From assembly GCA_012521105.1 (NCBI GenBank), contig JAAYNA010000116.1, positions 1 through 64,000 on the forward strand: 64,000 bases of DNA. The letters are read 5' to 3'. Of this stretch, positions 17,461 through 25,441 are shown in pieces (the first letter of the stretch is position 1; each line of letters starts with the position of its first letter). The notes below the pieces were generated by a model, which did no database searches, was not told the DNA's origin, and saw only the letters and a program-made list of their open reading frames with translations. The position numbers and the translations under genes were made by a program. Source of the stretch: Clostridiaceae bacterium (GTDB lineage: Bacteria; Bacillota; Clostridia; DSM-8532).

Positions 17461-17565
17461 CAAACTAAGAATCAGGATTTTATAGGAAAAGCACAAATGT
17501 ACGTTGAGCAGCATTTGTCCGATACAAATTTATCTCTAAAGTGGATAGCAGAAAACTACCTGTAA
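17461..17565 (+). pseudogene. Remnant of an AraC-type DNA-binding domain
   Basis: A short reading frame ends with QDFIGKAQMYVEQHLSD and LSLKWIAENYL, which match the first helices of AraC-family helix-turn-helix domains as found in clostridial response regulators. The frame stops right after NYL, where YM...LSxxFK would follow, and nothing upstream resembles a receiver or cupin domain. It is a gene fragment. Confidence 0.6.
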
Positions 17566-17637: not shown

Positions 17638-20600
17638 TTAAATAAGGTTTGTATTATCAAGCTTTTCAAAGTAAAGCCGGGGCAACACTATTTTAACTTC
17701 ATTTCTGCTGTTTTCATCTTTCCAAAAAACAATGAACCTTATTTTAGCAGATTTAAGTGCATAACCTTTCTCTTTTATTGAGTTTATTTTCTCAATACAC
17801 TTTTTAGAAAATTTTAATACTGCTTGTCCTTCAGAATTTAAACAATATTCATCTTTTACAATAAGGGTATCTCCACTGACCAGTTTTGTTATTAAATTCT
17901 GGCGGTATGCCGGTATGAAAAAGCCGAGATAAACATCTTCATGTGTAAGCTGTATCACCAGTTGTCGCGGTGAAGAATAAGAGTTTCTGTTATAAACTTT
18001 TTCAAGTTTTTCAGCAGGTATATAGTCTAAATAGTATCCATTATAGTGAATAACCAGATTCTTTTTTGCTCTTGTCATGGCAACATAAAGAAGCCTTTTA
18101 TCTTCATCGGTGTTCGGATAAAAACCATCAAGCACTATAAACACATTATCAAACTCACGGCCTTTGGCTTTATGCATTGTTGATACAAATATTGTTTCTG
18201 CCCCTTCATTATAAAAGTCTTCAAGGTTTGATTCCCTCACAAAAACTTCCAGATCGGATTTGTATTTAGTTCTTTTACTTGTTGATTCAAATGCTTTTAT
18301 CAGATTCTTGCATATTTCCAAATTCAGGCTTCTTCGGAACCTTTCTGCAAGCCTTCGCTTTGCCTCCTCCCAGATATCATCGCTTACTGTGCAGCTGTCT
18401 TTGTCCAGGTTCACCTCATTTAAAAAGTGCCTTATCTCCAACAGGTTATATAAATTGAAGCCGTCATTAGACTGAATCAGTTTCGCCTGCATTCGGTTGT
18501 TTACAAGTAAACCTGTTATTTGCAAAGCTTCTTCATTTGTTCTGGTTAAGACACAGGTGCTTCCAATAAGCTCCTGTGACAGGATATCCTCAACCACGGG
18601 AGTAATAAGGTTACCCGAACTGTAGCGAACCAACCTTATCCTGCCGTTATCATTCTGTTTGGGCTGTATTGGTGTATGTTTTAAGCGCTCTTTTATTTTA
18701 ACTGCAAACTGGTTTGCAAAATGAATAAGATTACTTTTACTTCTGAAATTTTCAACCAGTTCATAAACTTTTGCATTTTTATCGTCAATTAATTTTTTCA
18801 TGTATCCCGAACTTGAGCCCCTGAACTGGTAGATATTCTGGTCATCATCCCCCACTGCAATCACACGCATATCTTCATTGTATTCCATAAGGCATCTAAT
18901 GAGCTCGAACTCATATGCATCCATGTCCTGTGCTTCGTCAATAACCAGGACGGTTTTAGTTATTCCTGATGGTTCAACTTCATTATTTTTTATTTTTGTT
19001 ATGGTTTCTTTAATTATATTTTTTGACTTTTCAATGCTTCCAACCCTGCCCAACAAGTCAAAGCAATAAGAGTGGAAGGTTTTAATATCTATATAGTGTG
19101 CGGCATTTCCATAAAGCTCTAAAAGTCTTCTTTTAAATTCGGTGGCTGCTGACCTTGAGAATGTAAGCATCAGCAGCTGTTCGTGCTTTACATCTTCCAT
19201 ATACAAAAGCGAAGCCAATTTATGAACCAGAACACGGGTCTTTCCACTTCCGGGACCTGCAGCAACCACAATATATTTTGATTTGCTGTCATTGATGATG
19301 TTTAGCTGGGCGGGCGACAGTTCGCTGAAAAGCTGTTTGAACTTGGCAGGGGTTATTGTTTTGTTAAGGGCCTGCCTGTTCCCCTTAAAGTACTTATTCA
19401 AAAAAGAATTATAGCTAAGCTGGAAATAATCATCTACAAACTGCAGTGCAGCTTTATAGTCATCAATCATCTTTCTGGCGTATTCGCCGACAATATGGAT
19501 CTGCTGCACTTTGTTTTCATAAAACTCTTTAAGTTTCTGGTAGTCTTCCAGTTTATAGCGCCTCTTATTATCCAGTTCAATGCGTTCAATATTCATAGTA
19601 TTGTGAATAACCAGAAAACCGCCTTCTATGTATACTGTACCTATTCTTGACAGATAAAAAAGGGCATCCTCTATATCATTAATTGTGGCTTTGGTGTTAA
19701 ACATGGTAATTCTGTTATTAAAGGCTTCTTTTAATTGAAGAACTGAAAAAGCCACCCTTACTTCGCCTTTAGAGCTAGGATCCTCGGCAGTTTCGCTTGC
19801 TATATTGTAGAGGTATTCCAGTATAAATTTTGCAAGCTCATAACGTTTATTAAGTCTTTCTTTAAGGAGCTTTTTTTCATGAATACAGTATACTGCAATA
19901 TGGTTTGGTGGAATAGTCCGGCGCTTAATCCATTTAGTTATAGTCCAGAAATTTGTAATTGTTTTCAGTTTATTAGTCGTTACATCTTTACAGCCAAATT
20001 CCTCGGCCTGTTCATTAAGCTCCTTTATGTGAAATGTCTTTTCTTCTTCGGTGAAAACAGTTAATAAAAATTCTTCTATTTCCTGGAATTCAATCAGAAT
20101 TTTAAGTGAATTGTTTACATTTCCTTTTTTCTTTATATACACTGATAAATCCATAGTATCGGCCAATAAGCCTCCTTCCCGAAGCAGATTTACAATATGT
20201 ATTACTGTTCTTTTTTCAAGCCCGAGACGATCAGCAATATAGTCAACCCTTGATTCGGGTTCATCGGTACCGGCATAGCTTCTGCTTCTTGTGGCTATTA
20301 GCATTTTTATTATTCTGATGGCATGCATCCGCTCTTCTCTAGAAAATTTCCCCGAAGCATAAATTTTGTTTATTGCCTCCTCTGCGTTTCTTGCCTGTAT
20401 GCTATTGGCAAAAATCTTAGGAGTATTCTGGCTTCTTTTAATATAGCCTGCTTCTTCAAGAGCATTTATTGCTGTTTTAACTTTTGTTTCCAAATCGTGA
20501 ATACTGTCATCCCACCCGGCTTTTCTGGCAATTTCCAAAGCCGACTGAGAAACCCTTTTCCTCATTCCGGTAATACTTTTAATAGCCCTCCAAATCTGTT

Positions 20601-22458
20601 GAATCTCCTGCATATTCAGTTTGGTCTGATTCAAAAGAATAAAATGCTTGTTCAGATCATCATCATTATATAATACATAACAATCTGCCGAAATGGATTC
20701 ATCCCTTCCCGCCCTTCCGGCTTCCTGAACGTAATTTTCCAGCGAATCCGAAATATCGTAGTGGATAACCATCCCTACATCTTTCTTGTCCACTCCCATT
20801 CCAAAGGCAGACGTTGCAACCATGATTTGAACATCGCCTTTAATGAAGGCATCCTGGTTTTCGGTTTTTATCTGCTTGTCCAATTGTCCATGGTATGGCC
20901 TTGCCTTGTAACCGTCTTCACATAACCTATGCGCCAGAAGTTCGGCACGTTTTGTTCGTGATACGTATATAATTGTTGGACAAGTTTTTTCTTCAACTAA
21001 ATTTCTTATTGTAATATATTTTTCTTCGTCATCCTTTTTTTCCAGTACCCTATAACGTAGATTACTTCTTGTTGCATTTGTTTTAAATAATTCAAGTTCG
21101 ATGGATAGCTTTTCTCTGAAATAATCCCGTATGTCTTCAATAACTTTGGGTTTGGCTGTGGCTGTGAAACATGACACCGGAATGGGCTCTTCAAGGTTTT
21201 TCTTTTCCTGAAGTGATTTTATAAAGTCGCCGATATATAAATAGTCAACTCTGAAATCATGCCCCCAGGTGGAAAAACAATGCGCCTCGTCAATTGCAAA
21301 CCTGACCACATTCCTTCCAAGCAGAAGTCGTTCAATTGTCCTGGAACGTAAGGATTCGGGCGATATATAAAGAATATATGCCGAGCCATCCTCTACCCTT
21401 TCAATGGATTTTGCCCGTTCTATCGGATCCAGCAAACCATTAATGGTTACTGCATTGGTTATACCGATTTTTTCAAGGTTATCAACCTGATCCTTCATCA
21501 GCGATTGCAACGGTGATATGACCACCGTCAGGCCTTTTGAATTTTCACCGATCATCAGTGCAGGCAGCTGGAATGTAACAGATTTACCGCCACCTGTTGG
21601 AAAAATAGCCAACAGGGATTTATTGTCGATAGCTGCCTGTGCGGCTCTTTCCTGCAGCGGTTCACCTGCATAAGTTCTGAATGAGTCAAAGCCAAAAAAC
21701 CGTTTCAGACCTTTATGTATGTCAATAGCTTCATTACAGTAAATGCAGCCTTTTAAACACCGATTACTTTTTAAAAGGCGCATAACCCGCTCTACATCGG
21801 GATAAGTTCTGACTACCCAAGGGGGTGTAATTGAATCTGTCCGTCTTGTTTTAATTAAAGCAAGGCAATATGATAACTCCACCGGATTCTCATGAATCAA
21901 CTTTTCAATATCTGCATTTTCACAAATTAAGGTATGAAATTTTGTGCGGATTAAGGTGTCCAAATCATATTGGAAAGTGCTAAATTCCACAAAAGTAAAA
22001 AAGGCTTTAAATTCTCTTTTATCATGTAAAAGAGTGAAAAAAATCTGTTTCATGTCATTATCCAGCCTTTGAAAAGCTGCCACCTCATCATAAAAGAGGT
22101 CTTTTGCCTTCATCGAATCATTAAGTGGATTATTAATTTCGTCGGTTTGCAGTTTATCATCCTTAAGAAGTGAATGGTAAGGCTTTGCGGGAAAGAGCAA
22201 AGGAGACAGGAACAGGGTGTCGATTATGTTTTCGTCTGATATACCCGCATCAGTAACCGCATTTTGAATATATTTTAGATCATGGTTCAATATGTTGTGA
22301 CCGCATATGTACTCTGAACCCCGTAAAAACTCAATAAAATCCCTGATATAAGCTGAATGGAATTCAGCGCCGTTATCTTTAACGGCACCGATATCTAAAA
22401 TTCTTTTATTTACAGGATTAATCTCGGTATCAATAAAAGTAATTAAGTTCATCTTCAT
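17638..22458 (-). CDS. Fused DEDDh exonuclease - RecQ helicase - UvrD/PcrA-type helicase
   Basis: 1,606-residue three-module DNA enzyme. Residues 1-125 form a DnaQ-like 3'-5' exonuclease: D10 and E12 in FIDTEIN, D60 in HNILNHD, D80, then H95 and D114 in the last motif. Residues 230-245 carry CLKGCIYC, a cysteine cluster. Residues 255-700 are RecQ-type superfamily 2: FPTGGGKS about 286-293, DEAH at 390-393, FTATA about 431, QEAGRAGRDE about 578-587. Winged-helix-like regions follow to about 1030. Residues 1045-1500 are superfamily 1: GPGSGKT 1068-1074, VIDEAQDMD 1172-1180, GDDDQNIYQFRG 1203-1214, then motifs STMHKAKG and YVAMTRAKK. All catalytic motifs look intact. The start may be ATG 22452 (MNLITF), better spaced from GAAGGTA. 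It stands alone with no partner gene on its strand. It is probably a repair, recombination or genome-defence enzyme; which one cannot be read from sequence. Confidence 0.92.
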   Translation of the reverse strand: MKMNLITFIDTEINPVNKRILDIGAVKDNGAEFHSAYIRDFIEFLRGSEYICGHNILNHDLKYIQNAVTDAGISDENIIDTLFLSPLLFPAKPYHSLLKDDKLQTDEINNPLNDSMKAKDLFYDEVAAFQRLDNDMKQIFFTLLHDKREFKAFFTFVEFSTFQYDLDTLIRTKFHTLICENADIEKLIHENPVELSYCLALIKTRRTDSITPPWVVRTYPDVERVMRLLKSNRCLKGCIYCNEAIDIHKGLKRFFGFDSFRTYAGEPLQERAAQAAIDNKSLLAIFPTGGGKSVTFQLPALMIGENSKGLTVVISPLQSLMKDQVDNLEKIGITNAVTINGLLDPIERAKSIERVEDGSAYILYISPESLRSRTIERLLLGRNVVRFAIDEAHCFSTWGHDFRVDYLYIGDFIKSLQEKKNLEEPIPVSCFTATAKPKVIEDIRDYFREKLSIELELFKTNATRSNLRYRVLEKKDDEEKYITIRNLVEEKTCPTIIYVSRTKRAELLAHRLCEDGYKARPYHGQLDKQIKTENQDAFIKGDVQIMVATSAFGMGVDKKDVGMVIHYDISDSLENYVQEAGRAGRDESISADCYVLYNDDDLNKHFILLNQTKLNMQEIQQIWRAIKSITGMRKRVSQSALEIARKAGWDDSIHDLETKVKTAINALEEAGYIKRSQNTPKIFANSIQARNAEEAINKIYASGKFSREERMHAIRIIKMLIATRSRSYAGTDEPESRVDYIADRLGLEKRTVIHIVNLLREGGLLADTMDLSVYIKKKGNVNNSLKILIEFQEIEEFLLTVFTEEEKTFHIKELNEQAEEFGCKDVTTNKLKTITNFWTITKWIKRRTIPPNHIAVYCIHEKKLLKERLNKRYELAKFILEYLYNIASETAEDPSSKGEVRVAFSVLQLKEAFNNRITMFNTKATINDIEDALFYLSRIGTVYIEGGFLVIHNTMNIERIELDNKRRYKLEDYQKLKEFYENKVQQIHIVGEYARKMIDDYKAALQFVDDYFQLSYNSFLNKYFKGNRQALNKTITPAKFKQLFSELSPAQLNIINDSKSKYIVVAAGPGSGKTRVLVHKLASLLYMEDVKHEQLLMLTFSRSAATEFKRRLLELYGNAAHYIDIKTFHSYCFDLLGRVGSIEKSKNIIKETITKIKNNEVEPSGITKTVLVIDEAQDMDAYEFELIRCLMEYNEDMRVIAVGDDDQNIYQFRGSSSGYMKKLIDDKNAKVYELVENFRSKSNLIHFANQFAVKIKERLKHTPIQPKQNDNGRIRLVRYSSGNLITPVVEDILSQELIGSTCVLTRTNEEALQITGLLVNNRMQAKLIQSNDGFNLYNLLEIRHFLNEVNLDKDSCTVSDDIWEEAKRRLAERFRRSLNLEICKNLIKAFESTSKRTKYKSDLEVFVRESNLEDFYNEGAETIFVSTMHKAKGREFDNVFIVLDGFYPNTDEDKRLLYVAMTRAKKNLVIHYNGYYLDYIPAEKLEKVYNRNSYSSPRQLVIQLTHEDVYLGFFIPAYRQNLITKLVSGDTLIVKDEYCLNSEGQAVLKFSKKCIEKINSIKEKGYALKSAKIRFIVFWKDENSRNEVKIVLPRLYFEKLDNTNLI

Positions 22459-25353: not shown

Positions 25354-25441
25354 AAGAATTCCCCCATTCGTATACTATTTCAGGTTCTTAAAATAATCAC
25401 ATATATAACGAATGGAGTTTCCTAAGTGTTGTCAGAAAATT

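Follow-up and report, generated by a model that had tools for sequence, protein, structure and literature searches.

What does a bacterium gain from one polypeptide that joins a nuclease of the proofreading type to two different helicases? This question is raised by an uninterrupted open reading frame of 1,606 codons on the minus strand of a Clostridiaceae contig (22458→17638 of the 64,000-nucleotide stretch that we analysed, hereafter the window). The frame opens with an ATG at 22458 and closes with a stop at 17638–17640; its length is far above chance, and the plus strand over 17638–22458 carries 66 stops. Orthologues of the fusion protein were found at 80, 76, 75 and 66% identity. The starts of homologues agree better with another in-frame ATG, at residue 3, than with the ATG at 22458. 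The first-pass annotation had described a single chain with the order exonuclease–RecQ–UvrD and a complete set of catalytic motifs in each part. The single 1,606-residue frame and the domain order hold, and so do complete motifs in both helicase cores; the complete DEDDh set of the nuclease does not, as asparagine (N109) occupies the position of the histidine.

The RecQ-type superfamily 2 core spans residues 246–620 (20599–21723, minus strand) and carries PTGGGKS with K292, a DEAH box at residues 390–393 and QEAGRAGRD as motif VI. Residues 251–619 score 281.4 bits against TIGR00614 (cut-off 219.8), and this score together with the full motif set places the protein in the RecQ helicase family at the subfamily level. 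It falls below the cut-off of the canonical bacterial RecQ equivalog TIGR01389 (330.3 bits against 640), a profile that covers the RecQ C-terminal and HRDC regions as well as the core; the alignment spans its helicase core only (profile positions 4–355 of 591). The UvrD/PcrA-type superfamily 1 core follows at residues 1041–1475 (18034–19338, minus strand), with AGPGSGKT including K1073, DEAQD, GDDDQNIYQFRG and YVAMTRAK as motif VI. It matches PF00580 (E = 1.2e-30) and PF13361 (E = 3.2e-26); UvrD/PcrA/Rep equivalog models reach at most 132.2 bits against cut-offs of 911–1144, but an SF1A core is nonetheless present. The motifs of both helicases are all intact and aligned in around 20 homologues. 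AlphaFold2 (AF2) models, built from family alignments of the window and related loci with the plasmid-record rows left out, gave fold searches that were dominated by RecQ and UvrD domain matches. Modelled residues 242–615 matched the Escherichia coli RecQ core (1oyw/1oyy, VIA-align Z 27), and the best structural matches of the UvrD core were PcrA (1pjr) and UvrD (2is1), with weaker Foldseek matches to RecB, AddA and AdnB.

The remaining segments are less familiar. Between the nuclease and the RecQ core lies a helical connector (residues 133–245; 21724–22062, minus strand) with cysteines C179, C234, C238 and C241, which may form a zinc site; they are conserved in the closer homologues only and are missing from two distant members. 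The two motors are separated by winged-helix-like segments and a helical linker (residues 621–1040; 19339–20598, minus strand), a region in which Pfam recognised neither the RecQ zinc subdomain nor HRDC. The chain ends in a mixed alpha/beta domain (residues 1476–1606; 17641–18033, minus strand) that is conserved in the family; Pfam did not identify it, and profile searches of solved structures gave no convincing match.

The N-terminal domain (residues 1–132; 22063–22458, minus strand) had no Pfam match over threshold when queried alone. A profile of 47 N-terminal domains of the fusion family was more informative: 13 of its 15 matches in the PDB were DnaQ-fold exonucleases, including DinG, PolC and DnaQ (best E = 2.7e-4). 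When searched against genomes, it also retrieved frames of about 1,405–1,465 and 920–970 amino acids, with E values down to around 1e-8; these are the sizes of PolC and DinG. The AF2 model showed the DnaQ-type β-β-β-α-β-α-β order with pLDDT of about 88–95 outside residues 90–110. In a global alignment, D12, E14, D103 and D167 of E. coli DnaQ pair with D10, E12, D60 and D114 of the fusion and DnaQ H162 pairs with N109, and RNase T aligns in the same register; the statistics of these alignments are weak, but the motif register is unambiguous. On the basis of the modelled secondary structure and the profile matches, we assign this domain a predicted DnaQ fold with a DEDD tetrad.

Is this nuclease active? 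D10, E12 and D60 are invariant in the 47 members and D114 is nearly so. The position five residues before the last aspartate, where DEDDh enzymes have their general-base histidine, is N109, and asparagine is found there in more than 90% of the members. Because of this prevalence, N109 is, judging from the alignment, a feature of the family and not a lesion of a single copy. The substitution could mean a weak or altered nuclease. It also lends some weight to an improbable alternative, in which the domain is a non-catalytic module for DNA binding or end recognition and the protein a plain double helicase: nearly all members have lost the general base, and residues 98–106, near the last nuclease motif, are modelled at low confidence. 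Against this reading, the four acidic residues are retained, and the nuclease domain evolves under constraint similar to that on the helicases (dN/dS = 0.084). Moreover, H95 and K99, conserved in the family stretch PYHxLxKD, are candidates that might substitute for the missing histidine.

We then considered which known systems the fusion resembles. RecBCD or AddAB had been offered as the functional analogy. These enzymes and AdnAB do combine helicase with nuclease and have more than one motor domain, but they are multi-subunit and are known to use PD-(D/E)XK nucleases, whereas the motors of the fusion are RecQ and UvrD. Its scores against the curated RecB and AddA models are far below the cut-offs (recB, 62.2 against 696 bits; addA_alphas, 54.7 against 861). 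RecBCD pairs motors of opposite polarity, whereas RecQ and UvrD are both 3′→5′ translocases, and the mechanical analogy is therefore not supported: a RecBCD-type bipolar motor is unlikely because two 3′→5′ motors, each on one strand of a duplex end, would run apart. WRN and DinG are closer analogues. WRN likewise unites the two parts in a single chain, with the DnaQ-fold exonuclease ahead of the RecQ core, and its RecQ core matches that of the fusion structurally. It differs in that its exonuclease is known to be DEDDy, it has RQC and HRDC domains, neither of which Pfam detected in the fusion, and it lacks a UvrD motor. DinG of Bacillus and Staphylococcus also joins an N-terminal DEDD exonuclease to a helicase (family nuclease profile against S. 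aureus DinG 8zef, E = 1.3e-3), and B. subtilis DinG degrades single-stranded DNA in the 3′→5′ direction (PMC12525004). However, its single motor is an XPD-type SF2 helicase, neither RecQ nor UvrD.

Parts of the fusion also resemble components of defence systems. The UvrD part is similar to GajB of Gabija (E = 1.4e-48), and the RecQ part to DpdF of Dpd (E = 8.2e-98) and to PsyrT (E = 4.6e-82), although the NCBIfam DpdF model NF041063 stays below its cut-off (208.9 against 550 bits). No partner of the GajA, Dpd or antitoxin type recurs in neighbour clustering of 31 loci. Two larger sister proteins of 2,160 and 2,262 amino acids (L223:2826–9305 in genome G340 and L224:1451–8236 in G574) share the exonuclease–RecQ–UvrD order. 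Unlike the fusion, they have a long extra N-terminal region and, by our reading of the sequence, keep the DEDDh histidine (HIAEED and HTAEAD); a separate UvrD-like frame lies beside each gene.

The first-pass annotation had named no characterised enzyme with this exact order. The order is widespread and forms an established database family, whose members are labelled 'RecQ family ATP-dependent DNA helicase' in public records. We found no publication on an exonuclease–RecQ–UvrD architecture in the open-licence literature, and the full architecture is not covered by any curated model of Pfam, NCBIfam or PADLOC. This helicase–nuclease fusion family therefore seems to be present in databases but undescribed.

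Next, we asked how the gene is maintained and how it spreads. Relative to its nearest relative (L067, 80% identity), dN/dS was 0.084 for the exonuclease, 0.071 for RecQ and 0.075 for UvrD, and 0.07–0.13 across all domains, values that are approximate because dS is near or above 1. Judged by these rates, the gene is clearly maintained, with all domains under purifying selection. Its distribution is patchy: it occurs in two of the four genomes of the genus, in about 18 of 291 sampled Clostridia (around 6%, own genome included) and, by the nuclease profile search at E < 1e-15, in about 16 of 398 sampled genomes of the phylum (around 4%). Full-length or near full-length homologues are found in Clostridia, Bacteroidota, Campylobacterota, Alpha- and Gammaproteobacteria and Cyanobacteria, many of them on plasmids. 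Family matches occur in 29 plasmid records, at least 20 of which cover most of the exonuclease query; some of these plasmids are conjugative or mobilizable. In a quick FastTree phylogeny, Formosa and a group of gut Bacteroides are each placed inside Clostridial sequences (local support 97–99), and for this reason at least two transfers from Firmicutes to Bacteroidota are likely. A reading as a phage gene was rejected, as 50,697 isolate phage records held no convincing carrier of the exonuclease domain (four weak matches, E ≥ 0.02).

The gene also decays repeatedly. At the syntenic site of a congener, G001, what is left of the fusion gene is a decayed 3′ stump (L217:6595–6740) that contains an in-frame stop. 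The stump indicates that the gene was once present there and then lost, and it rules out recent acquisition into an empty site. One contig of another genome (G644, C1) carries three copies within about 52 kb (L220:2191–7082, L221:9555–9857 and L222:13302–18101), of which one is split in two frames, one is a fragment and one is intact; a copy on a Nostoc plasmid is split by IS1634. In the window, a short intergenic stretch at 25359–25432 has matches near the fusion site in congeners G001 (inverted) and G002, and is possibly a small repeat at a variable boundary. Separately, a Sulfurospirillum plasmid carries a 200-residue frame (L113:9992–10591) whose similarity to the family is confined to the N-terminal part; it adjoins genes for an AbiEii-type toxin and for a restriction endonuclease.

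The first-pass annotation had noted the lack of an operon partner and had suggested that the protein might serve in repair or in the destruction of foreign DNA. The former was borne out, as the clustering of neighbours yielded no recurring companion gene at all across the 31 loci. For the latter, the picture depends on where the gene resides. By eye, the genes around it in the window (two-component system, ABC exporter, radical SAM protein and peptidase) include none for defence. Between the ABC genes and the fusion, at 17480–17563 on the plus strand, there is a short remnant that resembles part of an AraC-type regulator; it reads YVEQHLSDTNLSLKWIAENYL and then meets a stop. Elsewhere, the fusion lies 66 bp downstream of res, on the same strand, in a type III mod–res system (L117); beside a TOTE primase–helicase and a SMEK-domain protein (L128); near an Eco57I/ResIII protein (L121), a ResIII protein (L127) or a DNA methylase (L123); and, in Formosa, just downstream of an McrB-like AAA gene and McrC. 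On mobile contigs and plasmids, members of the family also have type I hsdRMS, CRISPR I-D or viperin genes nearby, and helicase and PLD genes near one family locus resemble DISARM, a likeness read from generic names.

To put numbers on this, we counted the PADLOC models matched by neighbours. In IMG/VR, family loci gave 161 and control RecQ loci from that collection 14, a comparison in which the former are biased towards mobile DNA and the latter look like phage replication modules. Clostridial chromosomal loci showed no enrichment, with 20 models for 101 neighbours against 114 for 101 random-region proteins of related genomes. All these figures count models, not genes; redundant models, and a handful of restriction genes on either side of a comparison, inflate them, and one restriction system is enough to push a count up considerably. 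The association of mobile copies with defence genes is real for the copies seen here and putative in general. The mobile distribution and the defence neighbours found on plasmids and IMG/VR contigs lend some support to the proposed role against foreign DNA; Clostridial chromosomes, where this signal is missing, lend none.

We also asked whether the fusion stands in for a missing repair enzyme. The survey of neighbourhoods and AddAB that had been proposed at the outset showed that AddA presence is independent of the fusion: AddA (TIGR02785) exceeded its cut-off in every well-assembled relative, whether or not the fusion was present, which rules out replacement of AddAB. Replacement of RecQ is not supported either, because canonical RecQ is rare in the group in both cases (missing in 30 of 32 relatives). 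Several relatives share a second AddA-like frame of 1,097 amino acids that scores below the AddA cut-off (G000:C26:5361–8561, outside the window); in G002, some 5 kb separate it from the fusion gene.

Taken together, we favour a model in which the fusion is a self-contained helicase–nuclease carried as a mobile accessory gene, the most likely benefit of which would be interference with invading or replicating foreign DNA; we put the probability of this reading at roughly 0.45. It builds on the domain anatomy, the intact motifs, purifying selection, a patchy and transferable distribution and the lack of a conserved partner, and it predicts in addition the polarity and activity of the nuclease, the division of labour, the substrates and the defence role. 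The N-terminal DnaQ-fold domain, with asparagine for histidine, would act as a 3′–5′ exonuclease; a RecQ motor follows it in the chain, a layout shared with WRN, and after that comes a UvrD/PcrA motor. The RecQ motor would open branched, gapped or forked DNA, the nuclease could remove the 3′ end behind it as it passes, and the UvrD motor might unwind the other arm or strip bound protein.

Ranked second, and a serious though less probable competitor, is a chromosomal or plasmid enzyme of repair and restart, which would act on stalled forks and recombination intermediates by resection or remodelling and whose gene would come and go as other accessory repair genes do. Most Clostridial copies do sit among ordinary genes, and the parts resemble WRN, RecQ, PcrA and DinG, all of which are proteins of repair or replication stress (for DinG, PMC12525004). 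On the other hand, the AddA and RecQ surveys reveal no missing pathway for which it would compensate, and a narrow, patchy, transferable distribution with repeated decay is unusual for core repair. The Aliarcobacter copy, which lies between parAB and a T4SS coupling gene, and the Meiothermus copy, near parAB/rep, are compatible with repair; the former also fits a factor that aids the replication or transfer of its own plasmid or integrative element, or excludes competitors, instead of protecting the host. We consider such an element factor quite improbable: carriage on the 29 plasmid records, some of them conjugative or mobilizable, speaks for it, but many chromosomal copies are without visible element genes, and no plasmid-backbone companion recurs across the 31 loci.

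A bolder and rather doubtful reading is that the fusions constitute a large, undescribed, cross-phylum family of single-gene enzymes against mobile elements, in which a WRN-like exonuclease–RecQ unit with asparagine for histidine and a UvrD motor would form a self-contained machine for DNA destruction, and the longer sister family would keep the ancestral histidine. Two different 3′–5′ motors and a proofreading-type nuclease are combined in one chain in at least five phyla and are maintained under selection; neither RecBCD nor WRN nor Gabija predicts the mechanics of such a machine. A single purified protein would address whether RecQ and UvrD cooperate in cis, whether a DEDD nuclease works with asparagine at the histidine position, and whether one gene by itself could confer protection from foreign DNA.
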